Of a stretch of 42,401 nucleotides of DNA, positions 28 through 26,082 are shown in pieces. Below the pieces are notes generated by a model. The model had not been told where the DNA came from. It saw only the letters and a list, made by a program, of their open reading frames with translations, and searched no databases. How positions within the stretch are numbered: the stretch's first letter is position 1; the number at the start of each line of letters is the position of its first letter. The stretch is taken from positions 1 through 42,401 of the IMG/VR virus record IMGVR_UViG_3300013117_000046. The stretch is one strand, 5' to 3'. This DNA is from a virus. A program made the position numbers and the translations under genes.

Positions 28-52
28 AGATTGTTTAATTTTTTGACGAACT
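28..52. repeat. 25-bp palindrome, copy 1
   Basis: Copy of the dispersed element: left arm AGATTGTTTAA, T-rich loop, right arm ending CGAACT. It starts exactly at the stop codon of the methyltransferase gene (stop at 52-54) and lies before the next minus-strand gene. One arm base departs from consensus (TTGACG instead of TTAACG type). Confidence 0.85.
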
Positions 53-1395
53 TATTTCATCCCATGTACTTTCACAAGGAAACTATCCTTGTAACCTTTT
101 CCAAGTTCAAACCCAACTGCACTCATTCCTAACCCATGTGCAGCTATCAACCCATTACCTGAGCCAAGGAAAGGAATTAGAATTCTTGAACCTGGAAATG
201 CAAAGGTGTCATAGATGTCTGTCATTAGCTCAGTTGGGCGTTCAGTTTCATGTACTTTCTGATTGGATGGAACTGGAGAATACACAAAGTTATTACTCCT
301 TCCTGCCTTATTGAGGGCCGGTCGACCTTTCCAAGCATAAAAGAACATTTCGTAGGTATTTGCCAGGTGCATCTCCGGACGTTTAGACTGTCCACTAGGC
401 TTCGTCCATATACCGCACATGCGAGTAGTTTCAAATCCTGCATTTCTTATCCCTTCATATATAAGATTAAACCAAGGCTCTGGTGCAAACCAACAGATGA
501 GCCAACTATGATCAGCCATGACTCGATAGCATTCTTTGAATACTTCATTCATGCCTCGCCATTCGCCTTCCAAATCTCCATCCATGTAGGAACTCTTAGA
601 TATCTCGTTGTAGTCAGTAATCTGATACTTTGACACTCCATCTATTTTCTTCGCTTTCGCAATATCGATAGAGTATGGAGGATCTATTTCTACCAAGTGC
701 ATGATGCCATCAGGGATTTCCTTCACACCTTTGAAGAAACTATTGACAATGAAGTGCTTGGATAATTCTTGGAGTGTCTCATTAGTACCTTCCGATTCAA
801 GTTTTTGTGCAATAGTGTGCTTGATCAGAGCTTCGTCAACTTGCTTGAGGACTTTGCTTGCATCACTGGCGGTTTTGCAGTTGTCGAATAGGTCAGGGAA
901 TGCTTCACGAGCTTCGGCTCTTTTAATAGACATAGACACAGCAGCTTTGGAAGCATCTCCAATCAACCCTCCTGTGTCTTCAAGAGACCACCCACTCTGG
1001 TCAGGCCCAGGAGCTTTTACACCATGGAGTTGTTGTTGCATCTCGTGGATGTCCAGAGTTAAGGAATCAAACTCCCAGTATTCCATATCTTTACGGTGGA
1101 AGTTTTCAGACTTCTCTATTACTTTCATTTCAAGCTTGGTTAAATCATCGTCATAGATACGGACTGGGATTACATCCACTTTATTCTTCTGAAGGACAAG
1201 AAACCTACGTTCTCCTGCTAAGAGTTTGTAAGTCCCATCTGGATTTTCTTTAACAGCTAACGGTGAAATTAGGCCACTCTCTTTCATATTAGCTTCGAGT
1301 GAATCTAGATCACCCATCTCCTCACGAGCACGGTCTTCTATGACTATTGTATCTAGTCCTATCATGTCAACTTTACCTACCTGTATATCAGACAT
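52..1395 (-). CDS. ParB-like nuclease domain fused to DNA methyltransferase
   Basis: A two-domain protein of about 447 residues. The N-terminal 90 residues look like a ParB/Srx domain: a segment leading to LLAGERR at about 59-64 matches the GxRR-type core of the family. The C-terminal half is an amino-methyltransferase: catalytic motif DPPY at about 238-241 and the AdoMet-binding motif FLGSGNG near 409-415. The order DPPY before FxGxG is that of beta-class N4-cytosine or N6-adenine enzymes. Such ParB-methylase fusions are known in phages and are usually thought to modify phage DNA. The start is taken at ATG 1395, which has GGGAGGT six bases upstream; a GTG at 1401 is in frame but lies inside the ribosome site. 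It overlaps the upstream small gene. Target base and site cannot be read from sequence. Confidence 0.88.
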   Translation of the reverse strand: MSDIQVGKVDMIGLDTIVIEDRAREEMGDLDSLEANMKESGLISPLAVKENPDGTYKLLAGERRFLVLQKNKVDVIPVRIYDDDLTKLEMKVIEKSENFHRKDMEYWEFDSLTLDIHEMQQQLHGVKAPGPDQSGWSLEDTGGLIGDASKAAVSMSIKRAEAREAFPDLFDNCKTASDASKVLKQVDEALIKHTIAQKLESEGTNETLQELSKHFIVNSFFKGVKEIPDGIMHLVEIDPPYSIDIAKAKKIDGVSKYQITDYNEISKSSYMDGDLEGEWRGMNEVFKECYRVMADHSWLICWFAPEPWFNLIYEGIRNAGFETTRMCGIWTKPSGQSKRPEMHLANTYEMFFYAWKGRPALNKAGRSNNFVYSPVPSNQKVHETERPTELMTDIYDTFAFPGSRILIPFLGSGNGLIAAHGLGMSAVGFELGKGYKDSFLVKVHGMK

Positions 1396-1600
1396 CTCCA
1401 CCTCCCTTTAATATTTTTAGTAGTTCAGCAGCCTGGTTTTGATTAACCTGCGGTGCAGCTTTTGCTTTCTTTCTTGTGGTGGATTTAGTTTTCTTTATAG
1501 GTATGCGACGAGATAAGCGAAGGTTGCGGAGAAGTTCAATTGCCTCGTCGTTTGGCATGTCAGTTATTGACTTGTAGTTGAGATCATCTAAGTTGGCCAT
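1388..1600 (-). CDS. Small basic hypothetical protein
   Basis: A 70-residue protein with a Lys/Arg/Thr-rich middle (about residues 30-50) and a short acidic-to-hydrophobic helix at the end (AAELLKILKGG). I do not recognise it. GGAG lies upstream of ATG 1600. Its start overlaps the stop of the 57-residue gene upstream (TAATG), and its end overlaps the methyltransferase start, so the three are probably translationally coupled. The basic middle could bind nucleic acid, but that is only a guess. Confidence 0.7.
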   Translation of the reverse strand: MANLDDLNYKSITDMPNDEAIELLRNLRLSRRIPIKKTKSTTRKKAKAAPQVNQNQAAELLKILKGGGDV

Positions 1601-1773: not shown

Positions 1774-2018
1774 TTCTTCCCCACCTCCTCTGCTTGTTTC
1801 ATACTAGAGATAACATCTCTAGGTTTCAACTTCCCACTCATCATTACTCCAATAGCTACGCCACCAAACTCGTCAATCATGTCAAGGACATCTTCTAGAA
1901 TTCGGCCAAAGATAGCTTTGCGTAGACCGTAGGTGGCAAGGAGTTTGTTAGCTCGCTGTTGTTGTTCTTCGGTAATCTCGAAGCTAAAACGAGGCTTATA
2001 TTCTCCTGTGTCTGGCAT
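1770..2018 (-). CDS. Hypothetical protein, possibly ribbon-helix-helix-like
   Basis: 82 residues. A short strand-like segment (KPRFSFEITEEQQ, about 8-20) is followed by two helices containing an RKAIFGRILEDVLDMID stretch, which resembles the layout of small ribbon-helix-helix proteins. The resemblance is weak and no function is assigned. ATG 2018 has AAGGAG upstream and lies inside the last codons of the upstream epimerase-like gene (23-bp overlap). Confidence 0.7.
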   Translation of the reverse strand: MPDTGEYKPRFSFEITEEQQQRANKLLATYGLRKAIFGRILEDVLDMIDEFGGVAIGVMMSGKLKPRDVISSMKQAEEVGKK

Positions 2019-3216
2019 TTAGTTCTCCTTCTTTCCATTTTGTAGTTGGTAAGATAACTTCTGGGTTGACTCTCTTTTGGTATGGTAGTAGTTCGGTAAG
2101 TAGTTTGGCTATCTCACTTTGAATGTCTGTGGTAGGTACGTAGCCCAAGTCAAGTAGCTTTTGATGTACTGGGTTATAGTGATGTTGACTTGCCTCAATA
2201 CGAGGGTTCTTCATATACTCAATTCCTGTCTGAAGGCCTAGAGTTTTGGCCTCTTCGTGGACTATGTTTGCCAAGCTGTCGATCGAGTATATATTTTCAA
2301 ACTGATTAAAGGCTCTATACTCACCCTCCTCAGGAGGATTTTCAATAGCTATTGTTAGACATTGGATTGAGTCTTTTAATGGCAGGAAGCCACGTACTTG
2401 ACTGCCTTTGCCGTAGACTGTAAGATTATGCTCTATGATAGCTTGAGCACAGAATCTATTGATAGCTGTACCAAAATACTCATCATAATCAAAGCGGGTC
2501 ATTTCCTCTTCATTCTCTGGATCGTTCAGTCCGAAGACAACACCTTGCATGATGTCAGTTGAGCGTAGGCCCCAGACTTTGCAAGCGAAGATGATGTTAT
2601 GAGTGTCATGGACTTTGGATAGATGGTAGAAAGAACCTGCAGAGCGAGGGAAGGGTAGGCCTTGCATGGGACACTCACATTGCATCTCTTCTATATCTTT
2701 TCTCTCATACCACGCTAGACAACCCTGAGGGATTTCTCCTTCAGGTATATCACAATCAGGCGTCCCATACTCACCCATCGTTCCCAATTTAACCAGATGT
2801 GCATCAGGACATTCTTTCTTCATGGCCCAGAGAAGTTGCAAAGTCCCTATTACATTCTCATATTGAGTCTGGACTGCAAATCCTACATCTCTCATAGACC
2901 ACGGAGCAGATGGTTGCTCAGCTAAGTGGACAATAATGTCTGGCTTGAAAGAGGCTAAGATAGAATTGATAAAATTTGGTGGGACTCCTCCAAGTGTAAG
3001 GTTGACTTGGTCGATGTAGTTTTTGTAATTGGCTTTGAGATAGTAACGTTTGGCTGTTACAGGCATGATAGGTGTTAGAGATTCAGTACCTACTTCATTT
3101 ACTCTTCGTCTGCGTGAAAGATCATCTACTCCAAAGACTTCATGGCCTTTCCTTAGTAGATGGATGGTTAATGGATAGCCAATGTAGCCATCGTTTCCTA
3201 GTATTAATATTCTCAT
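1996..3216 (-). CDS. UDP-sulfoquinovose synthase-like NAD-dependent sugar-nucleotide enzyme
   Basis: A 406-residue extended short-chain dehydrogenase/epimerase. The N-terminal NAD motif GNDGYIG (7-13) and the following VDDLSRRR...GTESLTPI match the pattern of plant and bacterial UDP-sulfoquinovose synthases (SQD1/SqdB) as I remember them. So do LAEQPSAPWSM (98-108), KLGTMGEYGTP (143-153), SFYHLSKVHDTHN (195-207), FGTAINRFC and LTVYGKGSQ.RG. The catalytic Thr146, Glu149, Tyr197 and Lys201 (YxxxK) are all present. SQD1 converts UDP-glucose plus sulfite to UDP-sulfoquinovose. The gene lies between the dCMP deaminase (ATGA overlap) and a small gene. A general sugar epimerase is the alternative, but the SQD1-type motifs run through the whole length. 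The C-terminus carries an extra basic tail. Confidence 0.85.
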   Translation of the reverse strand: MRILILGNDGYIGYPLTIHLLRKGHEVFGVDDLSRRRRVNEVGTESLTPIMPVTAKRYYLKANYKNYIDQVNLTLGGVPPNFINSILASFKPDIIVHLAEQPSAPWSMRDVGFAVQTQYENVIGTLQLLWAMKKECPDAHLVKLGTMGEYGTPDCDIPEGEIPQGCLAWYERKDIEEMQCECPMQGLPFPRSAGSFYHLSKVHDTHNIIFACKVWGLRSTDIMQGVVFGLNDPENEEEMTRFDYDEYFGTAINRFCAQAIIEHNLTVYGKGSQVRGFLPLKDSIQCLTIAIENPPEEGEYRAFNQFENIYSIDSLANIVHEEAKTLGLQTGIEYMKNPRIEASQHHYNPVHQKLLDLGYVPTTDIQSEIAKLLTELLPYQKRVNPEVILPTTKWKEGELNARHRRI

Positions 3217-16859: not shown

Positions 16860-17201
16860 ATGAAGAGAATAAGAATTTTACTGGCACTTTCTGTTATATT
16901 ACTTCTAGCCGCATGTGCCTATAATGCTCAAGTTGCCCAAGATGCTTATGATACTCTGGAAGAGGCAAAGGTTGCCTATGATATGTCCTTAAAAATCTCC
17001 GCTGAGCTTTGCAAGTTAGGGTTCATCAGTGATGGTGACAAAGAGGAAATAATCAAGGTTATGAAAGTCTACCACGATGCTCATAATGCTTCAGTTATCC
17101 TCTTGGGTGAATATGGAAAGTTTTCCATTCCTCAACTTGACGCCATAAAAGTCAAACAACCTGAAACTTATTTCGAGGAGAAAGATGATAAGATTGATTA
17201 A
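16860..17201 (+). CDS. Lipoprotein in lysis cassette (possible spanin subunit)
   Basis: 113 residues. A basic start (MKRIR), hydrophobic core and lipobox LLAAC with Cys20 form a bacterial lipoprotein signal. The mature part is helical (AQVAQDAYDTLEEAKVAYDMSLKISAEL) with no clear domain. AAGGAG precedes ATG 16860. Its place between an M15-type peptidase and a holin-like protein suggests an outer-membrane lysis factor like an o-spanin, but no matching inner-membrane spanin is evident and the protein is longer than typical Rz1, so this is tentative. Confidence 0.75.
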   Translation: MKRIRILLALSVILLLAACAYNAQVAQDAYDTLEEAKVAYDMSLKISAELCKLGFISDGDKEEIIKVMKVYHDAHNASVILLGEYGKFSIPQLDAIKVKQPETYFEEKDDKID

Positions 17202-17373
17202 ACAGATGGTTAGGCCCTTCATAGCAGTCTCATTTGTGTTAGTTACATTGGTCCTGTTTGTGATGGGTAAGATTCCCGCAGAAGCCATTTTACAAACTAC
17301 AGGGATCATAGTTGGCTTCTATTTTGGTGAGCGAGCAGCCCTCAAGAAAACTGACACCACAGAAACTGAATGA
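17185..17373 (+). CDS. Holin-like small membrane protein
   Basis: 62 residues with two hydrophobic segments (about 12-27, FIAVSFVLVTLVLFVM, and about 34-47, AILQTTGIIVGFYFG) linked by a short turn. A charged C-terminus follows. The pattern fits a two-segment holin, which would form lesions in the inner membrane for the nearby peptidase. It overlaps the lipoprotein gene by 17 bases and the next glycosyltransferase gene by ATGA. Small membrane proteins of other function cannot be excluded. Confidence 0.65.
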   Translation: MIRLIKQMVRPFIAVSFVLVTLVLFVMGKIPAEAILQTTGIIVGFYFGERAALKKTDTTETE

Positions 17374-18377
17374 TTCCCAAAGTCTCTGTAATAATATCTA
17401 ACCGCAACGATATTGCGATGCTAGTCGTCACAATTCGTTCTTGTATAGAGGAACTCAGGCCACTTGGCAAAGGCCTCGGTGAGATTATCATAGTTGACAA
17501 TTCCGACCCTGCAGCATATAAACTGCTAGGAAGTGCCTTACCAGTTGGATATTGCAGAGACAAATTACTAAAAGTCTATCGTCAAGACTTTCCATGTCTG
17601 TTTAGTGCTAGAGAAACTGCAGCTGAGAAAGCCTCTGGTGAATACATCTTCTGTGTAGACTCTCATATGTTAATCGGGAGGGATTGCATAGTAGATTTGG
17701 CAAGCTTTATGGATGAACATAGGAAGGATAAATCCTTAGCCTTCGCCCACGCTCCAATCTCCTGGGCTCACCACCATGAAAGATACGCTAAACATGACAG
17801 AGATATAAGTGAGAATGAATTAGGAAATTGGAACATTGCTTATCCTTATAGACGAACCATCACTTGGAAGGGAATGCCTTGGATGTGTCGTCGAGAGTGG
17901 TTTTTAGATCGAGATAAAGGCTTAGGAGGCTACGGAGCCCTTTCAGATCACAAAGTTAGCTGGGGCGGAGGCGACATGCACATTGGAGTCAAGCCCTGGC
18001 TTCTTGGATTTAAAAATTGGGCAGTGCCTACTAACCCTTGCATTCACATAGGGCCTTTTCCTAAAACTGACCAAGGAAAGAATCCTAATGTTACAAAAGT
18101 GTCAAACTTTCGATCTAAAGACAAATATCGAGTTTATGGAGAAAGTGGACAATTCCCTCATACATTTGGTTTCTTAGTTTCCTGTTATATTCTCGGTGGA
18201 GAGTCAATGATGAAGCGGAACAAAGAAGCTATCACAAAACGTTTTGGTAACTTTATAAATGTCGACAAGTGGTGGCAGAAAGCTATGGAAGTTGGTCATA
18301 GTGAAAAACAATGGCTTGATAAACGAAAAGTCATGTCATTTGGAGAACTACTTAAAACGAAGCCTTGGGATAACTAG
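17370..18377 (+). CDS. GT-A fold glycosyltransferase (family 2-like)
   Basis: 335 residues. The N-terminus KVSVIISNRND with later EIIIVDN (about 38-44), an AAEKASGEYIFCVDSHM segment (DSH at about 97-99 in the DxD position), and an acceptor-side region with WKGMPWMCRREWF and a GGGD segment are typical of GT-A enzymes. No membrane segment is seen. It would move a sugar from a nucleotide donor to a glycan, perhaps host surface polysaccharide or a virion protein. It is coupled to the holin-like gene (ATGA) and is followed with no gap by a sulfotransferase gene. Confidence 0.85.
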   Translation: MIPKVSVIISNRNDIAMLVVTIRSCIEELRPLGKGLGEIIIVDNSDPAAYKLLGSALPVGYCRDKLLKVYRQDFPCLFSARETAAEKASGEYIFCVDSHMLIGRDCIVDLASFMDEHRKDKSLAFAHAPISWAHHHERYAKHDRDISENELGNWNIAYPYRRTITWKGMPWMCRREWFLDRDKGLGGYGALSDHKVSWGGGDMHIGVKPWLLGFKNWAVPTNPCIHIGPFPKTDQGKNPNVTKVSNFRSKDKYRVYGESGQFPHTFGFLVSCYILGGESMMKRNKEAITKRFGNFINVDKWWQKAMEVGHSEKQWLDKRKVMSFGELLKTKPWDN

Positions 18378-18968
18378 ATGGCCGTACAGATAGACAGAGC
18401 TATATGCCTTCATATTCCTAAAACAGGAGGTACCTTTGTCAGAAATTACTTCAAGGAAACAGGTATGAGTCACGGAGTTAAGGCATTGGAAGAAAGAGCC
18501 CACATGAACGCTTATCTCCTGCGTGAGACTATAGGTCACACAGAAGATCTAATATTCTGCTTCGTTCGACATCCTTTAACATGGTACAGATCATATTGGA
18601 CAAGTAAGCAGCAAATACCTGATAGAAGAGGCGGACCTCTGGATGAGATAGTCGATGAATCCTGGGAAACATTCATAGAGACAGTGATAAATAAGTATCC
18701 TAGATACCTAGAAGGTTTTTACGAAGGATACACTGAAATCTGCAGATTCATTGGAAAGCAGGAGAACCTCAGAGATAATCTGGACACTGTTCTCAGATTC
18801 CTAAGAATTCCTTACAACAGGGAATACTTGTTCAAGAGAGTCCCTGATAATGTGGTTCCTTCCAAAGTGAAGTACACCATGCTGCAGGCTATGGCTATCA
18901 TGGATCATGAGAAGAATATCATTAAGAAATACAATTACAACTATATACCTACAGAGGCGATAAATTGA
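18378..18968 (+). CDS. PAPS-dependent sulfotransferase
   Basis: 196 residues. LHIPKTGGTF at 11-20 is the 5'-phosphosulfate loop and FVRHPLTWYRS at 62-72 is the 3'-phosphate-binding motif of carbohydrate-type sulfotransferases. A C-terminal helical region (LDTVLRFLRIP) follows. It would transfer sulfate from PAPS to a sugar hydroxyl. The start follows directly on the stop of the glycosyltransferase gene, and the stop overlaps the TTG start of the radical SAM fusion, so the three are made together. The substrate is unknown. Confidence 0.85.
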   Translation: MAVQIDRAICLHIPKTGGTFVRNYFKETGMSHGVKALEERAHMNAYLLRETIGHTEDLIFCFVRHPLTWYRSYWTSKQQIPDRRGGPLDEIVDESWETFIETVINKYPRYLEGFYEGYTEICRFIGKQENLRDNLDTVLRFLRIPYNREYLFKRVPDNVVPSKVKYTMLQAMAIMDHEKNIIKKYNYNYIPTEAIN

Positions 18969-21844
18969 GAACGATAATAGTAGCACTATATCCCTACAAA
19001 GGTCAAGGTCTTGACTCTTGGATAGATCACGGAGCAGGTATGACCTACATTGCAGCTAAGAATGATGACTGTGATGTGGAATTCCTAGATATGAAGTCTT
19101 TGGCTAACGATGCTGAGTTGAAGGAAAAACTTAAGGGTTATGACTTGATAGCTTTCGGACTGAAGAGTTCTTACTATGCCATAGGTATGAAGGTGGTGAA
19201 GTTTGCCAAAGAACAAGGTTCCAAGGTCTTAGTTGGTGGCTATCATGCTACTGCAGCACCTGGCGAACTCCTCTCCAACTCTGACATAGACTACGTCTTC
19301 CACGGGGAAAGTGAACTAACTTTCCCAGAATTTCTCAAAGATCCTTCAAAATTTAAACGATCTATCATAGGCAAAAAGCCACCTAACCTTGACCTTCTTC
19401 CCTTCGTCGACAGAGACATCTACCGTGAGCCACTAGAAAATTGCCTAAACTGGTGGCATGGTGGAAAACTGTCAAAGATGACTACTGTAATGGCAGCTCG
19501 TGGATGTCCTTACAAATGTGCCTTCTGCCAGCCCCTAGAAGACAACCACTTTGGCAAAAAGCTCCGACGTAGAAGTGTTGATAGCATAATAGCTGAACTC
19601 AGACGACTTAAAGAACTCTACCATCCAGACTGTCTAATGATCCATGATGACACTTTCCTCATTCAGCCTAAATGGATAGAGGAGTTCATCGAAAAGTATC
19701 CTGAAATCGGACTTCCATTCTGGGCTGCAGCTCGTGCGGACGGAATCTGTGAGCATCCAGGTTTGGTCAAGAAACTAGTCGATGTGGGTTGGGAACTCAT
19801 TTCCGTAGGCTACGAATCCGGCAGTCAACGAATCCTCGACATTCTAAAGAAAGGTACCACAGTAGAACAAAACTACGAATCTACCAAGATAATCAGATCT
19901 ACCAGAGCCAAAATCTACGCCAACTACATAACTGGATTACCTTGGGAAACTAAATGGGACATCCAGGAAACTGCAAAAATGGCTGACATTATAGCAGCAG
20001 AAATGCCTTCATGGGCCTATTTTACTCCCTATCCGGGCTGTGAACTTGGCGAGGAACTCATCAAAAGAGGTTGGTCATTACTGAACAGAGAAACCTATGA
20101 CCGCTGTCCTTCCGGAGAAAAAGTCAAACATGTTGACTATGACTACATAAAGAAAGTCCGAGGAGGCTTCCGTGAGGAGACTTATCCAGAATTCTGCGAC
20201 ATCATTATTCCCTCTTACAACAACGAACACTATACGATAGGATGTTTAGAGTCTATCAAGAAGAACACTAAACCTGGAACCTATCGGGTTATCTGGGTAG
20301 ATAACGGCTCAGAATTCCCTAAAAAGGTCGACAAAGTAATCTCCGACATGGATCATGTTAGTATTAAACTTCCCACAAATGAAGGCTTTGTAGGAGCTAC
20401 GAATAGAGGCTTCGAAATCTCCAACGCTCCTAATGTTTGTCTCCTGAACAACGACACTGAGGTTCCAAACAGGTGGTTAGAGAAACTAATCACTGTTTTA
20501 CAAGGTTCTGAAGACATGGGAATTGTAGGTCCTTTAACTGGCTACGGAGAAGGCCTGAAGATGGACTCCCATCACAGTCTATCTCTTCACTCAACTCTGC
20601 TTCCGACTGCAGCTACTACCTGGGACCTAGATAAGATTAATTCTAAACTTGAGCTGGGATTCAGTGGCAGAACATACTCGATGTCATTTGTAGGATTCTT
20701 CTGTGGCGTTATCAAAAGGGAAGTGATTGACAAGGTGGGTTATCTGGACACTAACTACAAAATGGGTATGTGGGATGATGTAGATTACAATAGAGCCGCT
20801 CAAGAAGCTGGATACAGGACTGAATTGGTTATAGATACCTGCATCCTACATCATGGGAGGGCTACATTTAAGGAGATTGAGAAGAAAGAAAACTTCAATG
20901 TAAACAAGTTACTAGCACTGAACAAAGGTTACCTTGACACAAAATGGAGAAAAATCTACGCTGACAGAGGACTGCAGCCTGTCGTGGACTTCGACAAAAC
21001 CTTCGTAATCTCTCGAGCAATCTATACTCGTATGGGAGAGAAATCAGCTATAGGTGTATTGACTGAGGACCGACTATCCCTAATGCAAAGATATTTCATA
21101 GATAGCTTAGGCAATCAAACAGATTCAGACTTCACTGTCTACCTTATTGTAGGTAAGTACGAAAATGATGTGACAAAGAGAATTGAAGACTTGAATTGGG
21201 ACAAGGTCAATGTGCAGTTCATCTACACTGATGGTGATTTGTCAGAATGGAGAAATACTGTACTAAGAACAGAGAATTGGGGAAGAGAACAAGACGAAGG
21301 TTCTCCAGAATCTATCGTACGTAAGTACGGCCATCCCCAAGCTAACATCATGGCCAGACTAGACACAGATGATTGGGTAGCTCCTGGATGGATAGCTCAC
21401 ATGAAACATATGGCAGTGACTAAGCCAGAATCTCACTTCCTCATTAATTATCAAGTCACTGGCCAAGGTTTAGACGGTCGTCTATATCAATTTTCTATGT
21501 CTCACAATCATGGCAGGACAAGCCCATTCATAGCCTTGGTACAAAAGAAACCACCTCGAATTAGTCCCTATATGGACGCCCACCTGAAGATGGGTACTAA
21601 GTTTTCGACAGTTTACACCGTACCTCCTTTGTACACCTTCATGGTTGTTCATGAAGGTAATAGAAGTAACAGGTTCTATCCTTTAGACATATACTTTGAA
21701 GATGTGGAACTTGATAAGGTAGTTAAAGAGTTGAAAGTCCCTAAGAGGAAAAAGTCTAAGCGTAGGGTAGTAGCATCTACTACCAAAGGATCAGATTGGC
21801 GAGCTAGGATTGCCCAAGGTGAGGCAAGAAATGAGACCGTTTAA
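18965..21844 (+). CDS. Radical SAM + glycosyltransferase + rhamnosyltransferase-like three-module fusion
   Basis: 959 residues from a TTG start (GAGG seven bases upstream) that overlaps the sulfotransferase stop. Residues about 1-130 look like the Rossmann-type B12-binding domain seen before radical SAM cores, with GGYHATAAP, but without the DxHxxG cobalamin motif. ARGCPYKCAFC gives the 4Fe-4S cysteines 181, 185 and 188, and the barrel runs to about 370. A family 2 glycosyltransferase follows from about 410 (CDIIIPSYNN, IWVDNGS, LLNNDTEVP). From about 680 a third module (AIYTRMGEKSA...TEDRLSLMQRYFIDSL, IMARLDTDDW near 795) resembles putative rhamnosyltransferases. I know no characterised protein with this order. 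It may modify and transfer sugars on a surface glycan. Two palindrome copies lie in it. Confidence 0.88.
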   Translation: MRTIIVALYPYKGQGLDSWIDHGAGMTYIAAKNDDCDVEFLDMKSLANDAELKEKLKGYDLIAFGLKSSYYAIGMKVVKFAKEQGSKVLVGGYHATAAPGELLSNSDIDYVFHGESELTFPEFLKDPSKFKRSIIGKKPPNLDLLPFVDRDIYREPLENCLNWWHGGKLSKMTTVMAARGCPYKCAFCQPLEDNHFGKKLRRRSVDSIIAELRRLKELYHPDCLMIHDDTFLIQPKWIEEFIEKYPEIGLPFWAAARADGICEHPGLVKKLVDVGWELISVGYESGSQRILDILKKGTTVEQNYESTKIIRSTRAKIYANYITGLPWETKWDIQETAKMADIIAAEMPSWAYFTPYPGCELGEELIKRGWSLLNRETYDRCPSGEKVKHVDYDYIKKVRGGFREETYPEFCDIIIPSYNNEHYTIGCLESIKKNTKPGTYRVIWVDNGSEFPKKVDKVISDMDHVSIKLPTNEGFVGATNRGFEISNAPNVCLLNNDTEVPNRWLEKLITVLQGSEDMGIVGPLTGYGEGLKMDSHHSLSLHSTLLPTAATTWDLDKINSKLELGFSGRTYSMSFVGFFCGVIKREVIDKVGYLDTNYKMGMWDDVDYNRAAQEAGYRTELVIDTCILHHGRATFKEIEKKENFNVNKLLALNKGYLDTKWRKIYADRGLQPVVDFDKTFVISRAIYTRMGEKSAIGVLTEDRLSLMQRYFIDSLGNQTDSDFTVYLIVGKYENDVTKRIEDLNWDKVNVQFIYTDGDLSEWRNTVLRTENWGREQDEGSPESIVRKYGHPQANIMARLDTDDWVAPGWIAHMKHMAVTKPESHFLINYQVTGQGLDGRLYQFSMSHNHGRTSPFIALVQKKPPRISPYMDAHLKMGTKFSTVYTVPPLYTFMVVHEGNRSNRFYPLDIYFEDVELDKVVKELKVPKRKKSKRRVVASTTKGSDWRARIAQGEARNETV
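19339..19363. repeat. 25-bp palindrome, copy 15 (inside the radical SAM gene)
   Basis: Left arm AGATCCTTCAA, right arm TTAAACGATCT, so both ends are the A half-site. It is coding (DPSKFKRS) and has more arm differences than other copies, so chance similarity cannot be excluded. Confidence 0.55.
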
Positions 21845-22225: not shown

Positions 22226-23344
22226 ATGAAAGAATTTCTATCTGCTTTATTGATTGTACTTGTAGCCATTCTCATAATGGCTCCGAATCCAATAGGCCCT
22301 GTGCCTCCAGACAACACTCCGTACAATGCAGGTACTTGGAACGGCAATCAGAGGGCTGCCACGAAGAATGCTATAAGGGATCAACTGGAAGCCATGGCTG
22401 CAGTTGCAGCTCCGACGAATGCTTCCTATATTACTCAGATAGCTGAAGCAAATCTCACGAATGAACAGGCTATGGGTGCTCTAGGGACTGGAGCTGTCTG
22501 GAATACTACAACTACTGGCGTTCAGAGTATTTCGGCTGCCCTAACATCAATAGGCAATCTAACTGAGACTAATGGTGGGCTATTGTACGGTACTGCTGAT
22601 AACACCTATGCTTGGCTTGCAGCAGGTGCAACAACTGAAATACTCGTTGGTGGAGGTGCTGCTGCTCCTGTTTGGACTACTGCAACTGGCTCAGGCGCCC
22701 CTGTTAGAGCAACTGATCCGACTTTTGCTAACAAAGTTATGATAAATACTGCTACGACTACTTATCAGCTAAATGTTGGAGGTCATATATATCCAGTCGA
22801 TAGCCATGTTCTATTTACTACCGGCAGGGGAGTGCTCGATGCTAGTTCTGCTACGTATGGTCTCAAACCAAGGAATGGGTCTAATGAAGTAGAGATTTTA
22901 ACTAACAATACTTCAGCTGTAACTGTCGATAATGCCCAAGTAATGACTATCACATCTTTCGCTGGTTCAGGTGATGTAACTACAAACGCTGCGAAGGAAA
23001 TGATAGATACTTCCGACAGGCGTTTGAAGAAACACTTGGGTTATCTTGAAGATGGTGCTTTAGACAAAGTGATGAAGTTTAGACCTGTTTACTTTGCCTA
23101 TCTTTCTGATTTGGCAAAAGTAGGTAAGAAGAGTGGCAAGAAGAGAATTACAAAGAGGCAGGCCAGAACCCTCGGATTCTACGCTCAGGACGTCCGACCT
23201 ATTCAGCCGGAAGCTGCCCCTTACAATAAAAAGGAAGACAAGTGGGGCTTTAATAGCCGTGCCATGCTTGCGGTCATGGCTAAAGCAATTCAGGAACTTA
23301 ACGCTAAAGTTGCTGAACTTGAGAAGGACAGGAGGGGGAGATGA
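22226..23344 (+). CDS. Tail fibre with C-terminal S74 self-cleaving chaperone and N-terminal signal-like segment
   Basis: 372 residues. Near 265 SDRRLKKHLG matches the conserved start of the peptidase S74/intramolecular chaperone domain (Ser-Lys dyad), followed by LGFYAQDVRPIQPEA and a final helix (VMAKAIQELNAKVAELEKD), as in other fibres and endosialidases. This domain trimerises the fibre and then cuts itself off. The middle is Ala/Gly/Thr-rich with fibre-like repeats (GNLTETNGGLLYG). Unusually, the first 25 residues (KEFLSALLIVLVAILIMAPNP) look like a Sec signal or membrane anchor. The stop overlaps the next gene (ATGA). Confidence 0.85.
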   Translation: MKEFLSALLIVLVAILIMAPNPIGPVPPDNTPYNAGTWNGNQRAATKNAIRDQLEAMAAVAAPTNASYITQIAEANLTNEQAMGALGTGAVWNTTTTGVQSISAALTSIGNLTETNGGLLYGTADNTYAWLAAGATTEILVGGGAAAPVWTTATGSGAPVRATDPTFANKVMINTATTTYQLNVGGHIYPVDSHVLFTTGRGVLDASSATYGLKPRNGSNEVEILTNNTSAVTVDNAQVMTITSFAGSGDVTTNAAKEMIDTSDRRLKKHLGYLEDGALDKVMKFRPVYFAYLSDLAKVGKKSGKKRITKRQARTLGFYAQDVRPIQPEAAPYNKKEDKWGFNSRAMLAVMAKAIQELNAKVAELEKDRRGR

Positions 23345-26082
23345 AAAAGATTATCTTAGCTGCTTTACTGACTGTTTTAGTAACGGCTGTGGTGGCTCTT
23401 GCAGACTTCTTTCCAGATGTAATTGTAACCAGTCCAAACGGTATCTGGACTGATACAAGGGCTTACTCATCTATTGATGCTGCACTTACAGCTATCGGAA
23501 CTAATGTCAGAGATGTGTACATTGTGAGGGAGGAGGCAACTACTAATCTCACTATCCTTAGCAATGTCAATCTGAACTTCATTTCCAGAGGTTCCATAGC
23601 TAATACAGGTCAACTTACTATACAGACTAAGAATATCAACGCACACAATCGTCAGATATTCACTGGAGTTGGCAATATAGATTTTGCAGCTGGAACCATT
23701 CTCAAGACTAGATACTTCTCCAACGTTGAAACAGCCTTTGCTCTAACTGCAAATGACACAGTGACTCTCATAGTATCCCAACCACAGAATATCACAGCAA
23801 ACTATTCGCCTGGTAACAATGTAACTCTTAAATGGAATTCTCCAGGTAACATACTAACAGTCAACGCTGGAATTACTGTTGGTAACTTAAAGAAAATAGA
23901 AGCTGGAAATTACCAGATCTTTGCAGGTTCTGGCGATCTCGATTTCCTTGATGGGGCTGTTCTTAGCCTTAGTTGGTTCAATAGACTACGTACTATAGTC
24001 ACTTGGGCTGGTACTGATGAGGTAAATTTAGTAGTTACAGAGTCAGCAGCTGTCACTTTTGACAATACTATTCCTGCTACTATGTCTTTATTTATCTATA
24101 AAGGGTCTATCCTCACTGTATCTGCAGGCAGAACTCTCACTATCAATGGTGCTTACTCGGCCGGACTTTATCAAACTTTTAATGGTTCAGGTGATGTAGA
24201 GTTCGGCTTGGAGTCTGTTTTATCTATATACCCTGTCTGGTGGGGATTCAGTACATCTACTTCAGATGTAGTTAATGCTGCAGCTATTATGTCTGCTATA
24301 GATTCCCTTCCCACTGATAGGGGAGGTGACATACAGATGCACGGTGGAACTTTTTCTGTTGATGCAGATGTTATTGATATATCTACTCTTGAAAATGTTA
24401 CACTGCGAGGGGTAGGCTCAGCTAGAGGCTATGGCCCTAATGATGCAGCTACTAGACTAAATTTCACAGCTGGAACTGTTGGCATAAATGCCTATACTGC
24501 AGCAGTTCCTAATACCTGTAGTTATAATATACTCAAAGATTTTTCTTTGGCAGGTCAGGGAGTTTTAGCTAATGGTATTAAAGTATCTGGTACAGCTAAT
24601 GCTATTAGGGATGTCACTGTTACTGGCTGCACTGAAGCCGGCTTTTGGGTGATCCAGGCTAACAATATGCTTGTTCTTGAGGGTATTACTGCCTATAATA
24701 ATAATGGCGGTACTGGTTATGGGCTATTCTTACAGCGTGTCACAGTATCAAATACTCCTGTTAGTATCCTTGATAGCACCTTTGAGTCAAATACTGTAGG
24801 TATTCGTATGGAGTCTTTGATGGGAGCCTATCTTAGAAATTTGGTTATCGAAAGCAATTCTGATAGTGGTCTGGAAATATGGAAACCTGACGGTGGGACT
24901 GTAGGTTATCTTCAGCTTGACAGCCTTTGGTTTGAAGATAATGGTGATATAGCTACTGAGTCAGCTATAACAATGACGTCTCAGACTTTGAGTACTACGG
25001 ATGCTCCTAGATTTATTACGTTTACCAATTCTCGGATTTCAGCCGGTAGTAACAGATATATGACACTGGACAACTCTGTAGCAATAAAGTTTGAGCATAC
25101 TAACTTCGTAGGTGGGGATGCTACTACTTTTGTCTTTATCGATGCAGATGTTACACCTGCAACAGATAACATCTCTGAAAATGCCCATACTTTAATTACT
25201 GGAGTTATGGTTCAGTTAACTACAACTGGGACCTTACCTGCCGGACTGGCTCTATTAACTGACTACTATGTTATTAGAATTGATGATAATAATTTTAAGT
25301 TGGCATCCTCAGCGGCAAATGCTGCTGCTGGTATTCCTGTGGACATTACAGCCGCTGCTGGAGGCGGGAATCATACACTTTTAACTGTACCTTTTGTAAT
25401 AGATAATACTTGGGGAATAGGAACTGCCTTCATTGATTGTGATGTGATTACTGGAACAACTGTCATAGGTGGTCGTGGAACTATGATCAGGAGAATGCTG
25501 CAGACTACAGATGGTGGGTGGGAGTATTATCAGACTCATATACGTGTACAAGGTAACAGCAATGATGGTACGACTGACAGTCTGTCAACATTTAGCAGAA
25601 GTGGAGCAGAGCGAATTTCTTTAACTACAGCAGGTGAGGTATTCTTAGGCGACACTACTGACATGGGTGCTCTTACTCATGGATCAAATGCGATCTTGAT
25701 GCATAATGGCTCTATTCCAATAAACTTTACAAACGCAGCTGGACTTTATGCAAAGGATATTGCTGCATCTGGTGAGTTATTCGGAGTTGGTGAAGATGGT
25801 ATTGAGACGCAGCTAACTTCTCACGCCAAGGATGCACCTGAGTGGATGTATGATCCAGATATTGACAAAATGGCTCCAAGGATTGTTAGGGAAGCAGATC
25901 ACGCTAAAGGTATAGTCAGATTCACCAACTACACTCGGGAGGCTAGACTTCTTGAATTGTTGATGAGTGGTAAGACTCTTCCTTCAAATTCCTTAAAAAG
26001 AACAGTTCTCTCTGAAGAATCTTTTGAAGAATATAACTCCAGAATGGGCCTATCTGGAGACGAGGCAATGAAGATTCACTAA
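23341..26082 (+). CDS. Beta-helix tail spike or depolymerase with Sec-type signal peptide
   Basis: 913 residues. The N-terminus has a basic start, a hydrophobic core and an ALA-D end at about 20-22, a classical signal peptide. The body has many short strands with repeated SGDVEF/GNIDF turns (about 100-300), then a pectate-lyase-like right-handed beta helix (about 310-560: GGDIQMHGGTFSVDADVIDIS, NGIKVSGTANAIRDVTVTGC, GLFLQRVTVSNTPVSIL). A domain with TGTLPAGLALLTDYYVIR near 630 follows. Such spikes bind or cut host surface polysaccharide. No catalytic residues can be assigned. The signal peptide is odd for a virion protein. Confidence 0.82.
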   Translation: MKKIILAALLTVLVTAVVALADFFPDVIVTSPNGIWTDTRAYSSIDAALTAIGTNVRDVYIVREEATTNLTILSNVNLNFISRGSIANTGQLTIQTKNINAHNRQIFTGVGNIDFAAGTILKTRYFSNVETAFALTANDTVTLIVSQPQNITANYSPGNNVTLKWNSPGNILTVNAGITVGNLKKIEAGNYQIFAGSGDLDFLDGAVLSLSWFNRLRTIVTWAGTDEVNLVVTESAAVTFDNTIPATMSLFIYKGSILTVSAGRTLTINGAYSAGLYQTFNGSGDVEFGLESVLSIYPVWWGFSTSTSDVVNAAAIMSAIDSLPTDRGGDIQMHGGTFSVDADVIDISTLENVTLRGVGSARGYGPNDAATRLNFTAGTVGINAYTAAVPNTCSYNILKDFSLAGQGVLANGIKVSGTANAIRDVTVTGCTEAGFWVIQANNMLVLEGITAYNNNGGTGYGLFLQRVTVSNTPVSILDSTFESNTVGIRMESLMGAYLRNLVIESNSDSGLEIWKPDGGTVGYLQLDSLWFEDNGDIATESAITMTSQTLSTTDAPRFITFTNSRISAGSNRYMTLDNSVAIKFEHTNFVGGDATTFVFIDADVTPATDNISENAHTLITGVMVQLTTTGTLPAGLALLTDYYVIRIDDNNFKLASSAANAAAGIPVDITAAAGGGNHTLLTVPFVIDNTWGIGTAFIDCDVITGTTVIGGRGTMIRRMLQTTDGGWEYYQTHIRVQGNSNDGTTDSLSTFSRSGAERISLTTAGEVFLGDTTDMGALTHGSNAILMHNGSIPINFTNAAGLYAKDIAASGELFGVGEDGIETQLTSHAKDAPEWMYDPDIDKMAPRIVREADHAKGIVRFTNYTREARLLELLMSGKTLPSNSLKRTVLSEESFEEYNSRMGLSGDEAMKIH

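Follow-up and report, generated by a model that had tools for sequence, protein, structure and literature searches.

A recurrent phage fusion protein with predicted radical SAM and glycosyltransferase modules in an apparently swappable sugar-tailoring island

The DNA analysed here (the window) is a 42,401-base virus record from IMG/VR. Its phage nature is indicated by its origin as a viral contig and by genes for a large terminase, a portal and a major head protein downstream of the gene under discussion. That gene (18965..21844; plus strand, as are its modules and the neighbouring genes described next) encodes a 959-residue fusion protein from a TTG start, without an internal stop. The TTG overlaps the stop codon of the preceding gene (TTGA), a GAGG lies a few bases 5' of it, and residue 1 aligns with an ATG-encoded start in most relatives. 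The preceding gene (18378..18968) encodes a sulfotransferase-like protein, recognised by eye from the motif HIPKTGGT and by a weak match to Pfam Sulfotransfer_1 (E 0.058), whose family is found in seven loci. Before it lies a separate GT2 glycosyltransferase (17370..18377; PF00535, 4.5e-11), with family members in eight loci. On the other side of the fusion is a tail fibre (22226..23344; PHROG tail fibre, 1e-13) with a C-terminal Peptidase_S74 chaperone domain (Pfam, 4.9e-9), followed by a tailspike-like protein (23341..26082), assigned from alignments, a structural model and hydropathy.

Four Pfam domains are found in the fusion protein, each above its gathering score. An AlphaFold model built from 26 sequences (mean pLDDT 80.7) consists of three folded modules, with a weak linker at residues 669-676, and hydropathy revealed no transmembrane stretch. 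The initial annotation, made from the sequence alone, had described a single 959-residue frame with three modules and recommended structure prediction; both the intact frame and the predicted folds bear it out.

Module 1 (18965..20164, residues 1-400) comprises a B12-binding-like Rossmann domain and a radical SAM core, delineated by Pfam, NCBIfam, AlphaFold, VIA-align and invariant residues. B12-binding (PF02310) matches residues 23-123 (8.7e-9, 35.7 bits against a gathering score of 32.1) and Radical_SAM (PF04055) matches residues 178-339 (4.7e-15, above gathering). The cluster motif CPYKCAFC occupies residues 181-188, and its Cx3Cx2C cysteines, C181, C185 and C188, are invariant in 19 aligned sequences, in agreement with the earlier assignment of a B12-type radical SAM enzyme with CxxxCxxC at this position. 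Its membership of the radical SAM superfamily is clear from domain matches and fold, the domain preceding the core is B12-binding-like, and cobalamin binding itself is predicted.

The fold of module 1 matches known radical SAM members with Z of about 25-30. VIA-align superimposed residues 1-408 on AprD4, the 1,2-diol dehydratase of apramycin biosynthesis (PDB 6FD2), over 386 residues (Z 30.4, rmsd 3.1, 18% identity); MgmA scored nearly the same (Z 29.3), with OxsB and CysS next. The N-terminal Rossmann domain aligned from residue 1 onward with MgmA, OxsB and TsrM. Among solved structures, AprD4 comes first both in a single-sequence search (2.1e-16) and by fold. A sequence profile of the viral family gives MgmA a marginally higher score than AprD4, which makes the two almost equal. 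AprD4 shares the arrangement of a B12-like N-terminal domain and a radical SAM core, but it is a stand-alone bacterial enzyme, and its aligned cysteine stretch reads CPYPCRFYC as opposed to the Cx3Cx2C of the fusion. The best NCBIfam model within the window is HpnJ (TIGR03471), which matches 19 of the 19 members scanned; its 115.1 bits, however, amount to a fifth of the curated cut-off of 577.6, placing the module outside the HpnJ family, as do 58.6 bits against a cut-off of 500 for the AprD4 family (NF033070). Since the module falls below the curated cut-off of every characterised radical SAM family in NCBIfam, its reaction is not fixed by these matches, and among relatives at a similar distance are MgmA and ApyD, whose substrates are proteins or peptides.

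Module 2 (20180..20956, about residues 406-664) is a GT2-family glycosyltransferase of the GT-A type, supported by Pfam, alignment and fold comparison. Glycos_transf_2 (PF00535) matches residues 413-591 (4.2e-21, 76 bits against a gathering score of 23.3), in line with the predicted start at about residue 410. Its motifs are LNNDT and GMWDDVDY, and in alignment A5 the NxDT (N91-N92-D93-T94) and DDxD (D200-D201-x-D203) residues are invariant. The nearest folds are polypeptide GalNAc transferases (ppGalNAc-T, Z about 22), within a ppGalNAc-T/PcManGT range of about 20-22; the GT-A fold is generic, so that this similarity leaves the function unfixed and says little about the acceptor.

Module 3 (21002..21681, about residues 680-905) is a rhamnosyltransferase-like GT-A module, defined by Pfam, alignment A6 and an alignment with chondroitin polymerase K4CP. 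Rhamno_transf (PF11316) matches residues 701-903 (5.8e-7, 29.6 bits against a gathering score of 23), as anticipated for a module starting at about 680. The LDTDDW motif noted earlier is present, but at about residues 799-804 rather than near 795, and its DxDD residues (D121, D123 and D124 in A6) are invariant. The "rhamnosyl" label holds as a Pfam match, but the sugar is predicted by no more than the Pfam name. A search for sequence relatives of module 3 in the PDB found none. Modules 2 and 3 together resemble K4CP, which, like heparosan synthase 2, carries two GT-A domains per chain (Foldseek 1.1e-17; VIA-align 395 residues, Z 19.8, rmsd 8.2). The alignment spans both GT domains at 14% identity, with the placing of the two domains poorly defined in the fusion model, and the VIA-align rows span residues 1-863. 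K4CP differs in having no radical SAM part.

Searches for the same domain order, as the initial annotation had advised, retrieved five other distinct IMG/VR contigs with full-length homologues (L002, L003 with its near copy L006, L004, L016 and L017), from different metagenomes and 54-70% identical over 949-959 residues. In each of the three modules, pN is 0.15-0.38 with synonymous sites near saturation, so that all three are maintained by purifying selection.

Pattern scans of 2.9 million viral contigs and about 85,000 species genomes yielded 20 distinct relatives of the radical SAM module besides the window, with the near copies L003/L006 and L010/L011 each counted once. The scans catch close relatives only, and all such counts are therefore lower bounds. 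The 21 members fall into four layouts: radical SAM-GT2-GT (6), radical SAM-GT2 without module 3 (10; nine contigs and L074), separate GT2 and radical SAM genes (4; L008, L009, L010/L011 and L024) and a reversed GT2-radical SAM fusion (1; L012). Where the radical SAM gene is separate, a GT2 gene of the same subfamily is found upstream, sometimes with intervening genes (L008 and L009, and as fragments in both L010 and L024); L011 starts too late to reveal it. A search with GT2 alone gave 18 matches, all 18 on contigs already known to carry the radical SAM module. Module 3, by comparison, is also found without radical SAM, fused to other glycosyltransferases (L013-L015, L036, L042 and the cut-off L038). 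In a tree of the radical SAM module, the viral set sits on its own long branch (100/99), separate from the cellular and SF3 outgroups. A single clade (95/88), nested among fused forms, holds both the split and the reversed ones; the rooting is weak because of the long outgroup branches. By the Rosetta-stone argument, the occurrence of the same partners as two kinds of fusion, as neighbouring separate genes and as a reversed fusion, along with the exclusive partnership with one GT2 subfamily, supports a functional link between the radical SAM module and glycosyl transfer. Since some relatives lack module 3, the addition of two sugars would not be essential to the system.

No close cellular relative of the fusion was found among the approximately 85,000 species genomes apart from a single phage-like contig in a metagenome-assembled genome (MAG). 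This sole species-genome match, L025 (JAHFMX010000007.1), is 46 kb long and was assigned to a MAG of 1.2 Mb from a phylum with small genomes; in this MAG its gene is the only B12-binding match. The binning gives a weak hint of a host, or is possibly an error. Apart from that MAG, 145 genomes of the same phylum gave only distant homologues (at most 34% identity, mostly frames of 430-560 aa), and a bacterial origin of the fusion was dismissed on the results of the two scans. Cultured phages gave only distant single-module matches, such as the radical SAM protein of Streptomyces phage SF3 (24% identity), which has no glycosyltransferase annotated within 8 kb. A search of the PDB, NCBIfam, PHROGs and the literature found no characterised fusion of this kind, upholding the earlier statement that none was known in a phage. 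The fusion is thus recurrent, virus-specific within reach of these scans and uncharacterised, a new combination of known kinds of module.

In relatives that share the terminase, portal and major head protein of the window (head protein 72-83% identical where present), the usual gene order is a small HTH protein, a variable sugar-tailoring set, the fusion, the tailspike-like gene, large terminase and portal. Among the variable genes are a GT2, two P-loop sulfotransferase-like families with the motifs HIPKTGGT and GPQRSGTR, for which Pfam support is weak or absent and no sequence relative was found in the PDB, and, in some relatives, a methyltransferase. The tailspike-like protein has a conserved β-rich N-terminal part and a hypervariable C-terminal part, and its gene directly follows the fusion in most relatives; in the window, the S74 tail fibre gene is situated in between. 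Members of its family were found in L003, L004, L005, L013, L014, L018, L019, L022, L025, L036, L038 and L042. A Foldseek search with its N-terminal model gave no significant PDB match, and several of the non-significant matches are tailspikes. The tailoring genes differ between phages whose major head proteins are alike. From gene order, the fusion gene appears to be part of a swappable sugar-tailoring island beside the structural genes and the hypervariable tailspike-like gene. Virion genes are also near the separate radical SAM genes of unrelated phages: a minor head protein that comes next in L008 and lies a few genes further downstream in L024, a major head protein in L010, and terminase and portal in L009. 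At the island position in L036 (2249-4483), a relative without the radical SAM module, genes resembling hexapeptide acyltransferases and sugar aminotransferases were recognised by eye, along with one weakly similar to the methyltransferase family.

The fusion protein is read, with about even confidence, as a soluble cytoplasmic enzyme of the phage for the assembly and tailoring of glycans, with a virion component as its most likely acceptor. In the proposed mechanism, in which the catalytic activity, the sugar as substrate of the radical step, the order of steps and the acceptor are all presumed, the two GT-A modules would build a short glycan by adding two successive sugars to the acceptor. 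One of those sugars would be edited through hydrogen abstraction by the tethered radical SAM module, which would cleave SAM. The edit might be a deoxygenation or dehydration, as with AprD4, a rearrangement, as with HpnJ, or a C-methylation. With the separate GT2, the sulfotransferase-like protein and, in relatives, the methyltransferase, the result would be a phage-specific decorated glycan, most likely on a part of the virion, for example the tail spike or fibre encoded next door. A virion protein as acceptor is inferred mainly from the gene neighbourhood, which alone is no proof. A similar role is known from mycobacteriophages such as Che8, where virion proteins are reported to be glycosylated by glycosyltransferases of the phage itself (PMC11256854, citing Freeman et al. 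2023). The passage cited mentions no radical SAM enzyme, and the acceptor was demonstrated there, whereas here it is predicted from genes.

The editing of a sugar is supported by the invariance of the catalytic motifs of the three modules and the purifying selection on all of them, and also by the fact that both the nearest solved radical SAM structure and the best NCBIfam model represent enzymes that act on sugars. AprD4 dehydrates and deoxygenates the pseudodisaccharide paromamine (PMC5461906), and HpnJ takes BHT-glucosamine as its substrate following the step of the glycosyltransferase HpnI (PMC12583986). The HpnJ/HpnI pair of the hopanoid cyclitol ether pathway likewise combines a radical SAM enzyme with a glycosyltransferase acting on glucosamine, but the two are separate genes with a lipid-linked substrate, and the pathway requires a deacetylase, HpnK, of which no counterpart was seen with the fusion. 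Since HpnJ works after glycosyl transfer and AprD4 on a finished pseudodisaccharide, the radical step may follow sugar transfer, with the radical SAM module acting last rather than first. The initial annotation had proposed radical modification of a sugar or lipid carrier, followed by the addition of two sugars. Radical editing of a sugar combined with two transfers remains the most economical reading and has comparative support; the reaction order does not agree with these precedents, and the lipid carrier is unsupported by the present data.

A host surface glycan as acceptor is the serious rival, possible even if on balance rather unlikely. The island would then act, on the cytoplasmic face, on a host precursor of O-antigen or capsule, and the radical SAM module would edit this host glycan, so that superinfection is blocked or the receptor is masked. 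Conversion of the O-antigen by phages is well established, and viruses with O-antigen and glycosyltransferase genes have been reported (PMC9723712). The hypervariability of the adjoining tailspike-like gene and the differing tailoring sets of phages with similar major head proteins would suit such a role, as would a nucleotide-sugar epimerase gene at 1996-3216. However, of 16 related records, most of them fragments, only 2 gave an epimerase-family match above the cut-off; the fusion, the GT2 and the sulfotransferase-like protein all lack a transmembrane segment; and proximity to virion genes recurs in several unrelated phages. Conversion of the GtrA type was dismissed, as no GtrA-type flippase (PF04138) is encoded in the record, itself possibly a fragment.

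Modification of a protein is unlikely, though MgmA and ApyD, modifiers of proteins or peptides, are among the nearest models and structures, and the closest folds of the GT2 module by Z are polypeptide GalNAc transferases. The radical SAM module would alter a side chain, for example by C-methylation of a virion protein, and the glycosyltransferases would glycosylate the same protein. Against this, the top matches by fold and NCBIfam score, AprD4 and HpnJ respectively, are the sugar-acting ones, and a GalNAc transferase likeness counts for little in so generic a fold. Glycosyltransferases and some radical SAM enzymes participate in phage DNA hypermodification, and the window encodes a dCMP-deaminase-like protein and a protein that joins a ParB-like nuclease part to a DNA methyltransferase part (52-1401, minus strand). 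Synthesis of a glycosylated base in the phage DNA is nevertheless highly improbable, since the glycosyltransferases match glycan- and protein-directed GT-A enzymes and the fusion gene lies among structural, not replication, genes; the reading was dismissed because the record gave no match to a thymidylate synthase or an enzyme of the hydroxymethylase type. A refuting outcome named in the initial annotation, genes joined by an assembly error, is, like an artefact of gene prediction, conceivable in principle from the four relatives with separate genes, but the independent full-length homologues, with their low pN at near-saturated synonymous sites, contradict it and leave it practically no weight.

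The radical SAM enzymes that carry a B12-like domain are numerous, and many have no assigned substrate. The fusions, splits and reversed fusion with a single GT2 subfamily point to a glycan as the substrate here, and the fusion offers a compact, expressible system in which this could be tested. The data suggest that phages produce sugars edited by chemical means, with which they probably decorate either their own particles or the surface of the host. If so, radical chemistry joins the means by which phages make sugars, and unusual sugars on virions or host surfaces could emerge. In one uncultured phage group, an apparently swappable glycan-tailoring island is found next to the tailspike gene.

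Beyond module 3, a disordered linker (residues 913-945, pLDDT below 50) leads to a C-terminal tail (together 21704..21841) that ends in a short helix (945-958) with the sequence SDWRARI. The pattern W..[RK][IML] occurs within the last 45 residues of 13 of 17 fused or glycosyltransferase proteins of the phage group, compared to 5 of 427 other ORFs (Fisher p 6e-18, which overstates independence, as the 17 proteins share ancestry). It is present whichever catalytic module stands before it in the differently composed fusions. As a guess, the tail could be a docking tag. Tentatively, the fusion might be a one-polypeptide assembly line that places a radical-edited glycan on the tail spike or other virion proteins, perhaps tethered by this tail.

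The tailspike-like protein has a conserved N-terminus resembling a Sec signal peptide (for example, MKKIILAALLTVLVTAVVALADFFP), and it is unusual for a virion protein of a phage to carry a signal for export. The S74 tail fibre also begins with a strongly hydrophobic, signal-like sequence (MKEFLSALLIVLVAILIMAPNPIG). Upstream of the island's GT2 gene, a 113-aa protein (16860-17201) has a lipobox-like start, LLLAACAYN, and may be a phage-encoded lipoprotein.
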